From positions 5,239 to 53,921 of the forward strand of contig JAKUOU010000024.1 in assembly GCA_022451065.1 (NCBI GenBank): DNA of 48,683 nt, in the 5' to 3' direction. The notes under the pieces were generated by a model. That model searched no databases, was not told the DNA's origin, and was given only the letters and a program-made list of their open reading frames with translations. Source of the DNA: Pedosphaera sp. (GTDB lineage: Bacteria > Verrucomicrobiota > Verrucomicrobiia > Limisphaerales > UBA1096). Positions within the stretch are counted from its first letter, which is position 1. The number at the start of each line of letters is the position of its first letter. The translations under genes were made by a program, and so were the position numbers. This document shows positions 9,769-14,888 of the stretch, one piece after another.

Positions 9769-10527
9769 CTATTTGCCACAAATCGGACAATCCGACCTCT
9801 GTTGTAACCGCACCGAGTTGAAAGTCATTGCCCGTAAATCACAGGTGACGAGTCGATTAAAAAGAGGTTCGCCCAACCCGGTGATGATCTTAATTGCTTC
9901 CATCGCACCGAAACAACCGACCGCACCCGACACTGCGCCGATCACCGGGAAGCGTCGCTTCCAATCGTCCGGCTCCTCCGGATACAGGCACCGAAGACAG
10001 CCGGTTCTACCTGGAGCAAAACTGGTAATGTGCGCCTCCGTCTCGTACATCGCACACTCGACCATCGGCTTGGCTAGGCGCACACAAGCTGCATTCATCG
10101 CAAAGCGCTCCTCGAACAACGGCGCGCAATCCACCACCACGTCCGCCTGCCCGACGAGTTTGGCGGCGTTGGCCTCGGTGACGTTCCCTGGCACGGCAAC
10201 GATCTCAAGCCTTGGGTTCAGTGCCTTCAGCGACTCGACGGCCGTGTCGATTCGCGCTTGGCCAAGCGCGTCGTGCCGCATAAGCAACTGGCGGTTCAAA
10301 TCGCTTGGCTTAAGCTTTCCCGCATGGGCCAACACCAACCGACCCACCCCGACCGCCGCCAATTCATAAGCCACCAGGCCGCCCACGCCACCAATGCGGC
10401 TTACCATCACCGTGGCCGCCTTGAGACGCCGCTGCCCCTCCTCGCCAAAGCCGGCGACTGTCGTCTGCCACGAGTAAACTTCGCGCTCAGCATCGGTCAG
10501 TTTCGGCAGATCGCTTGGCTTACTCAT
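9769..10527 (-). CDS. ThiF/MoeB-like E1-family protein with altered nucleotide-binding motifs
   Basis: A 252-aa member of the HesA/MoeB/ThiF family, which adenylates the C-terminus of ubiquitin-like sulfur carriers (MoaD, ThiS). Preserved features are the helix after RIGGVGG (44-50), the arginine motif LNRQ (77-80), VVDC (131-134) and both zinc CxxC pairs, Cys177/Cys180 and Cys247/Cys250. The usual GxGGxG has Arg in place of the first Gly, and the acidic D-x-D loop of MoeB is replaced by AHAG, so ATP handling may differ. It overlaps the end of the transporter ATPase gene by 8 bases (ATGAGTAA), the last gene of the oxyanion-uptake operon. That fits molybdopterin synthase activation, but a regulatory or degenerate role is possible. 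Confidence 0.82.
   Translation of the reverse strand: MSKPSDLPKLTDAEREVYSWQTTVAGFGEEGQRRLKAATVMVSRIGGVGGLVAYELAAVGVGRLVLAHAGKLKPSDLNRQLLMRHDALGQARIDTAVESLKALNPRLEIVAVPGNVTEANAAKLVGQADVVVDCAPLFEERFAMNAACVRLAKPMVECAMYETEAHITSFAPGRTGCLRCLYPEEPDDWKRRFPVIGAVSGAVGCFGAMEAIKIITGLGEPLFNRLVTCDLRAMTFNSVRLQQRSDCPICGK
10255..10268. repeat. Iterated palindrome CGCTTGGCCAAGCG, exact copy
   Basis: Perfect palindrome within the ThiF-like gene, where the minus strand encodes Leu-Gly-Gln-Ala (part of DALGQARID). The symmetry extends to 16 bp with flanking G and C. Confidence 0.85.
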
Positions 10528-11161
10528 CGCGCTGCACCTGTCCGTCGGCCAGGCGGAAATGGCAGCCGCCCAAGCGCCTGGCTTCGCTTGGACTGTGTGT
10601 GATGTGCAGAATCGTCACGCCGGTTTCACGGTGTACACGCTCGAGCAATCGACACATCTCCCCGTGCAACTCCTCATCAAGCGCGGCCAGCGGTTCGTCG
10701 AGGCACAGCACCGACGGCCGATGGGCCAGCGCACGACCAAGGGCAACGCGCTGCGCCTCACCGCCACTGATCTTGTCCGGCATGCGGTCGAGCAAGCCGG
10801 TAATCCCGAGCAACTCCGCCAGTTCGTTGACTCGCTTGGCGATCTGCGCCTGGCTAAGCGCGCGCAGCACAAGCCCGAAGGCCAGTTGCTCACGTACAAG
10901 CATCATCGGGAACAACGCCCGATCCTGCGGCACATAGCCAACCCCACGCTCGGCTGGCGGCAGTTGGCTGACATCACGCTCGCCAAGAGTAATTCGACCG
11001 CTGGTAATTTTGCGCAAGCCGCAGATCGCCTCGAGCAGCGTCGTTTTGCCGCTGCCGCTGCCGCCCATCAGTACGCCATACTCGCCAGCGGCCAGTTCAA
11101 GGCCAATGTTGCGCAGCTCAAAACTGCCCTGCCGCAGCACGATGTTTTCAAGGGCAATCAT
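10520..11161 (-). CDS. modC: ABC transporter ATP-binding protein, molybdate type
   Basis: A 213-aa ABC ATPase with Walker A GGSGSGKT (residues 33-40), Q-loop PQDRALFP, signature ISGGEAQR and Walker B VLCLDEP followed by an H-loop (ITHS). It lacks the C-terminal TOBE/MOP domain of long ModC proteins, as many short ModC/TupC/CysA-like subunits do. The longer open frame upstream is not part of the protein: ATG 11161 begins MIALENIVL, the normal start of the domain, and overlaps the permease stop in an ATGA junction. It energises the permease encoded immediately upstream. Molybdate as the substrate is inferred from the family and from the ThiF/MoeB-like neighbour; tungstate or sulfate cannot be excluded. 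Confidence 0.86.
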   Translation of the reverse strand: MIALENIVLRQGSFELRNIGLELAAGEYGVLMGGSGSGKTTLLEAICGLRKITSGRITLGERDVSQLPPAERGVGYVPQDRALFPMMLVREQLAFGLVLRALSQAQIAKRVNELAELLGITGLLDRMPDKISGGEAQRVALGRALAHRPSVLCLDEPLAALDEELHGEMCRLLERVHRETGVTILHITHSPSEARRLGGCHFRLADGQVQRDE

Positions 11162-12420
11162 GCGAAAATCCGTTTCATACCAAGGGTTCGGGCGGTGATG
11201 AATACCACGACGGCGGCGGCGATCATGATGAGTGACACCGCCAGCATCCCCTCGGTGCGCCCGGCCTGTAGCTCGAGAAAGGCACTCGTCGGTAGCACCT
11301 CTGTTTTCTGCCGTGTGGCCCCGGCAAAGACGAGAATAGGCCCGAACTCGCCAAGCGCCCGCGCCCACGCCAGCGTGCCGGCTGCCAACAGGCCGCCCCT
11401 GGCCTGCGGCATGATCACACGCCAAAACGCCTGCCGCCTGTTGCAGCCAAGAGTGAGGGCAACCTGCTCGAAACGCTGCGGGATCTGGTCGAACGTCACG
11501 CGCATCGTCCGCACAGCAAACGCGCACGCCACCATGAATTGCGCCAGCACCACCGCCGGCCATTTGTACACCACCGCGTCGCTGAGCCACTCCGGCATGT
11601 AGCGAAACAGGATGAGCAAGCTAAGGCCCACCACCAGCGGCGGCAGCACGATCGGGATGTCGAGCAGCGTGTCAATGACCGGTTTGCCGCGAAACTCGAA
11701 CCGGCTCATCAAGTATCCGATCGGCACCGCAACCCACAACGACAACAGTGTCGTGAGCGTGCAGCTGATGAGGCTAAGCTTGATCGAAAAACGAATGTCG
11801 CGACTCCGCAGCGCCTGCACGAGCGGGTTGGGCTTGGAGAACGAAAGTTTCGTCGCCGACGGCGCGCCGTTTGCCACCGCGAAGGAAATTTGATTCGTTG
11901 TCGTGTCGGTGATTTCGCGGACGCCGTCCCACCCGGGCCCACCTGCATCGCTCACACGGATGAACTCGCCCCACAACAACCCGTGAGCCACGTCAGTCGT
12001 CACGGTGGCAACATCATTCGTGACGGCGATGCGCAACACGCGCGCCTCCGGCCTCAGGGATGCCGTAATCGGCCTGCCGCTAGCGCGCGGTAGCAGGACG
12101 GCTTGGCCGGCCGCCGCCCGGAACAGGCCGTCACTGGCGATGTGCTGTTCGCCAAGTTGCAGCCCCGCATCATTTTTGCCCTTCCGAAAAAAATAACCCC
12201 GGCTGGGCTCAACCGAGACAGTGACTTCGCCGCCGGTGTATCGCCCCTGCTTCACCATTTCCGGGCCAAGCACCGGCCGATCGCTGTAATTCAAAAACAC
12301 CAAATCGGCCAAGACCATTGCGCCGATAATAAGCAAATAGCTGCCGCCCAGCACGGCCAATCCAACAAGAAACGGCTTGTCGGAAGCGGTACGATAACCG
12401 GGTGGCGCCGGGTCGCTCAC
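11158..12420 (-). CDS. modB: ABC transporter permease, molybdate type, with large extra domain after TM1
   Basis: A 420-aa permease. Residues 210-420 form a normal ModB/CysT-like core with the coupling loop around FEQVALTLGCNRRQAFW. Unusually, a first membrane segment (about 17-40) is followed by an insertion of about 160 residues (45-208) before the core. Within it, residues 132-182 match the pattern of small beta-barrel repeats with an HGL signature (VATVTTDVAHGL, then a Gly-Trp-Asp-Gly turn and TNQISF), as in E1 FCCH-like and phage-virion repeats. The start is GTG 12420: it overlaps the previous stop as GTGA and has GGAGG ten bases upstream. Topology places the insertion outside the membrane. 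Confidence 0.85.
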   Translation of the reverse strand: MSDPAPPGYRTASDKPFLVGLAVLGGSYLLIIGAMVLADLVFLNYSDRPVLGPEMVKQGRYTGGEVTVSVEPSRGYFFRKGKNDAGLQLGEQHIASDGLFRAAAGQAVLLPRASGRPITASLRPEARVLRIAVTNDVATVTTDVAHGLLWGEFIRVSDAGGPGWDGVREITDTTTNQISFAVANGAPSATKLSFSKPNPLVQALRSRDIRFSIKLSLISCTLTTLLSLWVAVPIGYLMSRFEFRGKPVIDTLLDIPIVLPPLVVGLSLLILFRYMPEWLSDAVVYKWPAVVLAQFMVACAFAVRTMRVTFDQIPQRFEQVALTLGCNRRQAFWRVIMPQARGGLLAAGTLAWARALGEFGPILVFAGATRQKTEVLPTSAFLELQAGRTEGMLAVSLIMIAAAVVVFITARTLGMKRIFA

Positions 12421-13967
12421 TGACCGTTGGCCTCCCAACTGAAGCCAAGCTGCTCAAACCGCCGTCGCGATGTCTGCGACGTCAACCACTCCATCAGCCG
12501 CCCGGCCAACTGCGGGTAAGGCGTGGTTTTTCGGGCGGCGACGTTTTGTACGGCGAGTGCACGCTTGGGCTGCAACGGCACGGCGTCGAACCGATCCATT
12601 AGGTGTTGTATGTTTGCCTCGTAAACGAGCGCCACGTCGAGTTTTTGACCTGCCTCCATCGTTTGTACCAGCGTGTGCGCCGTGTCGGCCATCATTGCGA
12701 TGTTCTGCTTGATGGTGTCAAACTGCCCGGTCTCACGGCACAATTCGTGGCTCAACGCGCCAAGCGTGCTCGCCTTGGGATCAGTTGTTCCGACACGCAG
12801 CCCGCGCTTGGCCAAATCGGCGAGCGAGCCGATGCCGTGCGGGTTGCCCTTGGCCACGAGCATCACGATGCGAGTGCTAGACACCTTCAGATCGATACCG
12901 AACGGGTTGCCCATCTTTGCTTGCGCCATGTTGAGGTATGACGCGTCGCACGTCATGAAAATATCCGGCAGTCCCTGCTCGCTGGTCTGCATCTTGCCGA
13001 CCAGTGTACCGCAACCGGCATACACCACGTCGATCCTCGCGCCTTCACGCTTCTGAAACTCGCGGATGGTTTTCTCCACCGCCTCACGGTTCACACCGCC
13101 ACAATCGATGCGCAACGTGGGTGCATCGGCCCACTCGTCGCCGGGTATTGGCACGTAGTGGTGCTTGGCAAATACCGCCCCGCCCCTCGTCTGCGCAGCA
13201 AGGTAGCGGGCAAACTTCAGCGCCAGGACCGAACGCTGGGTCGTTGTCGTGACCGCCACGGAAATGTCCGCCTTGCTTGCCGCCAACTCCGGCAACTCGA
13301 CCACCCGCAGCCCAAACTGCCGTGCGACCGAGTCCCATACAAACGCCGCCCGTGTGCCTGCATTTTCCTTCACCGCCAATGCGGCCTCCGTCACGGTCGG
13401 AAATGAAGCCGCCTTGGCCGCATCCACCGCCGCCCAGTGGCCGGATCGCTCGAGCATCTTTTTTGTCTTCTTGCCAACGCCGGTAAGTGGATCGCATATC
13501 ACGAACGAAAGTTTTTGCGCCAGCACATCGTCGCAGTTGTCCAGGGTCAGGTCGCTGCCCGGCTTGGTACCAAGCACAACCTTCCAAGTGGCGATCTTCA
13601 GTGACTCGGCGGTGAGTCCGTCGACGCGTGCGCGCTCGGCATAAACGTAGTCCGCCGGAATATAGACATCCGCCCGGGGTAAACCGCCCTCCTTGTCTAT
13701 CTTGAGCTTGTTCGCCAGCACACCGCTGCTGCCGTACTCAAGGGACATCTTCGTACCGGTCTCCTGCTCAAATTTCCCGGCCGCCTCCTCGACGGCCTTC
13801 TTAACCCCAGCCGCACAATAGACGACCAATGTCTTCTCGCCGCCCTGTCCATCATCGGCATCCCGATTCAGGAAATACACCAGCGCTCCCACCAGCACTG
13901 CCGTCAACACAAGCCATACCACGCCGCCCTGTCCGCTGCGGCCATATCTGTAATCAGGATCGCCCAT
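12417..13967 (-). CDS. modA: Membrane-anchored tandem (double) molybdate/oxyanion-binding protein
   Basis: A 516-aa protein built from an N-terminal membrane segment (residues 15-33) and two consecutive ModA/SBP_bac_11-like domains. Domain 1 (about 45-285) has YGSSGVLANKL and domain 2 (about 285-505) has YAGCGTLVGKM at the equivalent place. Usual ModA proteins are single-domain, about 250 aa and freely periplasmic or lipid-anchored. Here the signal segment has no cleavage motif or lipobox, so both domains are probably tethered to the inner membrane beside the permease. ATG 13967 has AAGGT three bases upstream; the much longer open frame antisense to the PhzF gene is rejected. It is the first gene of a four-gene overlapping operon, and the promoter should lie within 13968-14069. 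Confidence 0.87.
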   Translation of the reverse strand: MGDPDYRYGRSGQGGVVWLVLTAVLVGALVYFLNRDADDGQGGEKTLVVYCAAGVKKAVEEAAGKFEQETGTKMSLEYGSSGVLANKLKIDKEGGLPRADVYIPADYVYAERARVDGLTAESLKIATWKVVLGTKPGSDLTLDNCDDVLAQKLSFVICDPLTGVGKKTKKMLERSGHWAAVDAAKAASFPTVTEAALAVKENAGTRAAFVWDSVARQFGLRVVELPELAASKADISVAVTTTTQRSVLALKFARYLAAQTRGGAVFAKHHYVPIPGDEWADAPTLRIDCGGVNREAVEKTIREFQKREGARIDVVYAGCGTLVGKMQTSEQGLPDIFMTCDASYLNMAQAKMGNPFGIDLKVSSTRIVMLVAKGNPHGIGSLADLAKRGLRVGTTDPKASTLGALSHELCRETGQFDTIKQNIAMMADTAHTLVQTMEAGQKLDVALVYEANIQHLMDRFDAVPLQPKRALAVQNVAARKTTPYPQLAGRLMEWLTSQTSRRRFEQLGFSWEANGQ

Positions 13968-14069
13968 CGTACCTTCTTCGCGGCGGCAGACAATGCCGTC
14001 AGCCGCACCCCGAAACAAGTTTGCAAAAAGACTTGTTCGGCAGCCACGCCCAGCAATCATTCCCGCCGC

Positions 14070-14888
14070 GTGCCAAGCCAAGCGAAATTGCCCGTTTTGC
14101 AGGTCGACGCATTTGCCGACAAGCCGTTCACCGGCAACCCAGCCGCTGTCTGCTTGCCCGACACCGAACCGCCGGCCGACTGGATGCAGCGGGTCGCCGC
14201 CGAGATGAATCTCTCCGAGACAGCATTCGCCTGGCCAAGCGGTGACGGCTTCGGGCTGCGGTGGTTTACGCCAGTTGACGAGGTAGATCTTTGCGGCCAC
14301 GCCACCCTGGCCTCGGCTCATGCGCTCTGGGAAACCAGGCGCCTGAATAACGACAAGCCGGCTATCTTTCAAACCCGCAGCGGCACACTGACTGCCAGGC
14401 AAAACGACCAACTCATCGAGATGGATTTTCCCGCCGAACCGGCTGTCGAATGTGCCCCGCCCGACGACCTGGCCAAGCCGCTTGGCTCGGAAATTCTTTG
14501 GTGCGGCCAAAACCGGATGGACATCCTCGTACAAATCACCAATGAACAAGCGATTCGCAACCTGGCTCCAGACCTTGCCTGCTTGGCCAGGCTTGGAACG
14601 CGCGGCGTGATCGTCACTGCAATTTCAGAAAACGGCCCAGCTGATTTTGTCTCCAGGTTTTTTTGCCCCTCACTCGGCATCGACGAGGATCCGGTGACTG
14701 GCTCGGCTCATTGTTGTCTCGCACCATTCTGGGCCGAGCGGATTGGTTGCAACGAGCTCGTTGGCTTTCAGGCCTCCAGACGCGGCGGCTTTGTCCGGTG
14801 CACACTCGCCGGAGACCGGGTCCTCCTCGGCGGCCAAGCGGTGACAATTCTCTCCGGCGAGATGGTCGCCCCTCCACCGGGGACTTGA
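14070..14888 (+). CDS. PhzF-family isomerase-like protein
   Basis: A 272-aa protein of the PhzF/diaminopimelate-epimerase fold. The N-terminal VDAFADKPFTGNPAAV, the catalytic Glu50 in NLSETAF, the FTPVDEVDLCGHATLA loop and the C-terminal DEDPVTGSAHCCLAPFW are all present in order, so it should be an active member. PhzF itself isomerises a phenazine precursor; most homologues outside phenazine clusters have unknown substrates, and no phenazine genes occur here. The start is GTG 14070; no clear ribosome-binding site is seen. It diverges from the binding-protein gene across a gap of 102 bases that must hold both promoters. Confidence 0.9.
   Translation: MPSQAKLPVLQVDAFADKPFTGNPAAVCLPDTEPPADWMQRVAAEMNLSETAFAWPSGDGFGLRWFTPVDEVDLCGHATLASAHALWETRRLNNDKPAIFQTRSGTLTARQNDQLIEMDFPAEPAVECAPPDDLAKPLGSEILWCGQNRMDILVQITNEQAIRNLAPDLACLARLGTRGVIVTAISENGPADFVSRFFCPSLGIDEDPVTGSAHCCLAPFWAERIGCNELVGFQASRRGGFVRCTLAGDRVLLGGQAVTILSGEMVAPPPGT

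Follow-up and report, generated by a model that had tools for sequence, protein, structure and literature searches.

Three described systems are close to the case presented here. In the maltose importer the P2 region of MalF is a large periplasmic part of the permease, which moves as a body beside the binding protein MalE and has been reported to be bound to it through the cycle (PMC8134467, PMC3150292). In GlnPQ tandem substrate-binding domains are fused to the permease (PMC8025302), whereas the tandem binding protein of our locus is a separate polypeptide. The Rickettsia palindromic elements are palindromic and measure about 150 bp (PMC10969869). Below we compare these systems with an ABC importer locus in a stretch of 48,683 nucleotides from Pedosphaera sp., to which we refer as the window.

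The permease and its operon

The genes of the locus are the following:

9769..10527, minus strand: ThiF/MoeB-like adenylyltransferase
10520..11163, minus strand: ABC ATPase of the same operon; the open reading frame is listed from 11590 and the domain starts near 11161
11158..12420, minus strand: ABC importer permease (ModB-like) with a predicted periplasmic insertion; GTG start at 12420, 420 aa
11161..11823, minus strand: permease core TM2-TM6 with EAA loop (residues 200-420), from profile matches and Foldseek to 3d31_C and 2onk_C
12295..12378, minus strand: permease TM1 (residues 15-42), from AlphaFold2 model me4b77930385e and the alignment; in all relatives
12417..14549, minus strand: tandem ModA-like binding protein, open reading frame of 710 aa; the start is more likely the ATG at 13967 (relatives have ~505-530 aa)
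about 13146-13835 (lobe 1) and about 12420-13145 (lobe 2), minus strand: lobes of the binding protein, 21% identical to each other

Permease residues are numbered over the 420 aa from the GTG at 12420, and the numbers of the 426-aa frame run +6. The relatives start at the same codon position with an ATG, where the window copy has GTG. Pfam BPD_transp_1 and the NCBIfam ModB/WtpB/CysW models match residues ~200-420 only, with 8.8e-19 for the match of the core to PF00528. The protein has the type I importer fold and an EAA loop, and an ABC ATPase gene lies adjacent. Among solved structures the ModB chains 3d31_C and 2onk_C come nearest to it, both by sequence and by the fold of the predicted model (Foldseek against 3d31_C: E=3.1e-10). 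The scores for TIGR02141 and TIGR01581 stayed under the curated cut-offs (150.6 vs 182.6 and 186.3 vs 210.3 bits, respectively). Judged from these profiles ModB-type is the best-matching group for the permease, but by rule it is no equivalog.

The binding protein scored 64.1 bits against the ModA model TIGR01256, just over the cut-off of 62.5. This match and the ThiS/ThiF neighbours point to an importer that would supply molybdenum or tungsten. The operon order in relatives is binding protein, permease, ATPase, ThiS and ThiF. The ThiS-like gene (about 91 aa in the relatives at loci L024 and L050) is missing here between ATPase and ThiF, and the genes of the latter two overlap at 10520-10527. 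In eukaryotic E1 enzymes the adenylation part and an FCCH domain belong to one protein. In the window a ThiF/MoeB-like gene for E1-type adenylation (9769-10527) lies in one operon with a permease (11158-12420) that carries an FCCH-like module. That the two share an operon is probably a coincidence, since ThiF is cytosolic and the module would be periplasmic.

The insertion, its kin and its distribution

Between TM1 and the core the permease contains the following parts:

11824..12291, minus strand: whole insertion (residues ~44-199) in the predicted periplasmic TM1-TM2 loop, from the alignment with insertion-less relatives and AlphaFold2 of the insertion alone
12058..12291, minus strand: N-terminal half (residues ~44-121), beta-rich, with no known relative
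11833..12057, minus strand: HGL/FCCH-like beta module (residues ~122-196) with invariant HG 146-147 and invariant Trp 150

In the alignment with 58-72% identical relatives the insertion comprises ~156 aa and is flanked by ...ADLVFLN and ...PLVQALRSRDIRFSI. It is missing from 14 aligned relatives of about 270-300 aa in which both flanks are conserved, and it is thus real and sharply bounded. The AlphaFold2 model, computed from 20 aligned insertions, is all-beta with a mean pLDDT of 87.7. The motif H-G-L ... G-W-D-G ... T-N-Q-I-S-F is present in the window copy and largely conserved across 22 related insertions, 18 of which match phrog_9998 (best 7.5e-6). Trp150 is invariant in all 22, and other modules have varying residues at this position.

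The earlier note had described an insertion of about 160 residues with an HGL repeat similar to FCCH and phage domains. The insertion, the motif and the kinship were borne out, but the FCCH-like part covers only residues ~122-196, and residues ~44-121 form a separate beta region. Genome-wide matches to the insertion profile fell into the C-terminal half only. Profile searches with the N-terminal half gave no relative, and this domain-sized part was found nowhere else. The idea that it is a degenerate copy of the HGL module was rejected by sequence.

For the kinship a profile search of the insertion had been proposed. Neither Pfam nor PDB yielded a usable match when searched directly with only the permease insertion, and the window copy matches no Pfam model, whereas the module family as a whole did lead to E1 FCCH. 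Compared by hhalign with 17 HGL modules of other bacterial proteins, the insertion profile reached a probability of 97% (P = 1e-10), which together with the phrog_9998 matches argues against a chance resemblance. The figure is mildly biased by selection as the modules were found partly with the insertion profile and otherwise with phrog_9998. The PDB search with the module family stands outside this circle. Its best solved-structure matches were E1 FCCH domains (2lzj/2v31: E=1.4e-4; 9qgg: E=2.4e-4), and with the permease rows removed from the profile we obtained 9qgg with E=1.4e-4 and the phage endosialidase 4hiz with 2.2e-3. With Pfam E1_FCCH we obtained matches to 7 of 20 modules, at best with 1.6e-6; one module of a PilO-like protein gave 7.4e-5, which is under the gathering score. 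In a Foldseek search of the insertion model Uba6 (0.98) and Uba1 (0.96) had the top probabilities of the PDB list, but with E values of about 0.05. A phage protein annotated as E1-FCCH reached a probability of 1.00, and phage virion proteins matched better than Uba6 and Uba1. Single phage modules superpose on the insertion model with an rmsd of 2.4-2.6 Å over 73-74 columns. Profiles and predicted models support a kinship of the HGL module with the E1 FCCH domain and with phage virion proteins, to which the window copy is linked through its sister modules.

Among the 20 genomes of the same genus 15 have the insertion at full length. One truncated copy includes the region, another stops short of it and the rest are without such a permease. 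We also found the insertion in the three genomes G516, G651 and G674, which belong to another genus of the order, and in MAGs titled Opitutia. Every complete permease copy of the genus has kept it, as have those of a few relatives, and permeases of many phyla with 58-72% identity are without it; nearly all genomes used are MAGs and the family counts depend on the genome set. In a tree of the core only, the insertion-bearing permeases form one clade (SH-aLRT 99). The insertion was gained once, in the ancestor of the genus and its near relatives. For transport as such it should be dispensable, because close relatives lack it.

The earlier note had further suggested a joint evolution of the insertion and the double binding protein. 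The double protein is indeed encoded at each of the 23 insertion-bearing loci for which the sequence sufficed for scoring, which would fit a matched pair. However, it is also encoded by 49 relatives without the insertion, which belong to Verrucomicrobiota, Planctomycetota, Bacteroidota and other phyla. Among the insertion-less relatives a single binding protein is present in two from Portibacter, in one from Cellulophaga and perhaps in a Verrucomicrobia MAG. The two-by-two count thus speaks against the suggestion: with 49 such loci the association is uninformative, and joint evolution as a matched pair is highly improbable. The double protein is more widespread and older, and the insertion came later in one gain, so that the two are nested and not linked.

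Modules of the same family in other proteins

Searching the window's own genome with the profile of the module family we detected four modules in three proteins. One of them is a multihaem cytochrome c of 733 aa (L105:364-2565, contig C167) with one HGL/FCCH module of 77 aa. In homologues up to 90% identical the stretch matching residues 1-280 is followed directly by that matching 358-732, and the module is absent. At the DNA level the comparison with genome G014 displays identity up to the junction and again beyond it, with 237 bp in our genome in place of 6 in G014. We found no terminal repeats of at least 7 bp in the right places at these junctions. The short AACCC/AATCCC resemblance that we noticed by eye at the two junctions seemed too weak to build on.

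Another host is a protein that we take to be Lgt, the prolipoprotein diacylglyceryl transferase; this name and that of the PilO/GspM-like protein come from our reading of the sequences and not from a family match. In the sister genome G016 it carries an HGL module of 81 aa (L191:1134-2192), which the Lgt of 18 other members of the genus, our own genome included, do not have. The PilO/GspM-like protein of our genome (549 aa; L131:550-2196, contig C79) has two HGL modules within an insertion of ~190 aa. Six genomes of the genus and G651 have this two-module form, and same-genus homologues of 349-351 aa are without both modules. Single HGL modules were also seen in a DUF4175 protein (L145:1-2388) and in a protein that is by sequence of the flagellar hook/basal-body type (L273). 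Others lie inside open reading frames of 3,424-14,158 aa from Verrucomicrobiota (L106, L107, L111 and L113), which are repeat-rich and probably encode surface proteins.

In the cytochrome, Lgt, the PilO-like protein and the permease the insertions are precise and in frame, and the module family is found in other envelope proteins of the group as clean in-frame insertions. The GC3 of the younger modules is lower than that of their host genes, namely 0.42 vs 0.76 for Lgt, 0.43 vs 0.57 for the cytochrome (flanks only) and 0.50 vs 0.57 for the PilO-like protein; these comparisons rest on short stretches and are consistent with an acquisition from an AT-richer source. For the permease we calculated 0.74 for the insertion and 0.77 for the core, again over short stretches, as expected of an old resident. 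Neither INPHARED nor IMG/VR contained a close phage donor for the permease, cytochrome or Lgt modules. One could go further and suppose that the folded FCCH/HGL domain is a mobile coding unit which marine Verrucomicrobiota spread by precise in-frame insertion into the exposed loops of envelope proteins, essential or not, and that the permease insertion is an old domesticated copy. We consider this unlikely.

The permease is one case of a wider and largely unexplained insertion of modules into unrelated envelope proteins of a group of marine bacteria. Lgt and the cytochrome provide natural pairs before and after the event, as the module is present or absent in proteins that are otherwise 80-90% identical. 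The entry of new domains into existing proteins is thereby directly testable.

The function of the insertion

According to the predicted model the permease has six TMs, and with the EAA loop inside the TM1-TM2 loop comes to lie outside. The insertion would thus be periplasmic, as is MalF P2. If the permease is a homodimer, each transporter would present two copies of the insertion on the periplasmic face beside the dock of the binding protein. There the insertion could offer an additional contact surface to the tandem binding protein, as P2 does to MalE, and Trp150, the invariant residue that is specific to the permease, would be a candidate contact residue. The precedent of MalF P2 makes a contact role the most likely specific function. 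The earlier note knew of no ABC permease with such an insertion; for the domain itself this holds in what was searched, but MalF P2 sets a precedent for large periplasmic insertions in contact with a binding protein. Two observations count against the contact role: the double binding protein is widespread without the insertion, and members of the module family sit in proteins such as Lgt, the cytochrome and the PilO-like protein that have no binding protein, which speaks against docking as a general role.

As the module has spread into proteins without a binding-protein partner, the main rival of the contact role is a tolerated decoration. In this view the exposed loops of envelope proteins would take up HGL modules, which would persist since they can fold on their own, and the permease copy would have no specific role beyond staying folded. 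The clean in-frame modules in unrelated hosts fit this well, as they are absent from close homologues (77 aa in cytochrome c, 81 aa in Lgt of one species only, about 190 aa in the PilO-like protein). So does the rate of change: pairwise dN/dS is 0.19-0.32 for the insertion and 0.05-0.07 for the core. The insertion is under purifying selection, yet with a dN/dS 3 to 6 times that of the core it is far less constrained. On the other hand every complete copy in the genus and its relatives has the insertion, its second domain-sized part occurs nowhere else and residues invariant only in the permeases have been kept. We regard mere tolerance as possible but rather doubtful.

Alternatively, HGL modules could bind a common ligand of the envelope, such as a glycan, peptidoglycan or a phage or surface component, and tether their hosts to it. 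Related modules do occur in phage tail and baseplate proteins, in the beta-barrel domain of endosialidase and in giant surface proteins, and the bacterial hosts identified are all probably exported or membrane proteins. However, across the modules there is no conserved binding site beyond the H-G and N-G positions that define the fold, and we hold such a generic binder to be improbable. The reading that we prefer is that of a homodimer-type permease from a molybdate/tungstate-like importer, whose loop gained a two-part beta insertion that most likely acts as a contact domain beside the binding-protein dock. We give it, taken as a whole, an even chance.

Compared with known importers, the core TM2-TM6, the EAA loop and an operon with a ModA-like protein and an ATPase are common to the window permease and the ModB of ModB2C2-A (PDB 2onk and 3d31), but the latter is without a periplasmic insertion, whereas our system has both the insertion and a tandem binding protein. 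With GlnPQ it shares two linked binding domains for one transporter. MalF P2 is likewise a large beta insertion in the permease of an ABC importer, with a periplasmic position next to the binding protein as proposed here; it occupies another loop, its sequence is unrelated and its contact with MalE is reported, whereas ours is proposed. Similar to the HGL modules the Rickettsia palindromic elements are in-frame coding insertions in many unrelated genes. The HGL modules, however, are folded domains of about 230-240 bp, and the single case examined had no terminal repeats of at least 7 bp. The E1 FCCH domain (Pfam PF16190; PDB 2lzj/2v31) is an HGL ... NG ... F beta module like those of the bacterial family, but it belongs to a cytosolic eukaryotic enzyme and the window module to a loop of a bacterial permease that is predicted to be periplasmic. 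Motif and fold are also the same in the HGL/FCCH domains of phage virions and in the endosialidase beta barrel (PF12195, PDB 4hiz); there they are part of virion proteins, often in repeats, and no close phage donor was found for the permease, cytochrome or Lgt modules. Here, an importer permease has gained a domain, predicted to be periplasmic, whose fold family is known elsewhere from E1 enzymes and phage tails.
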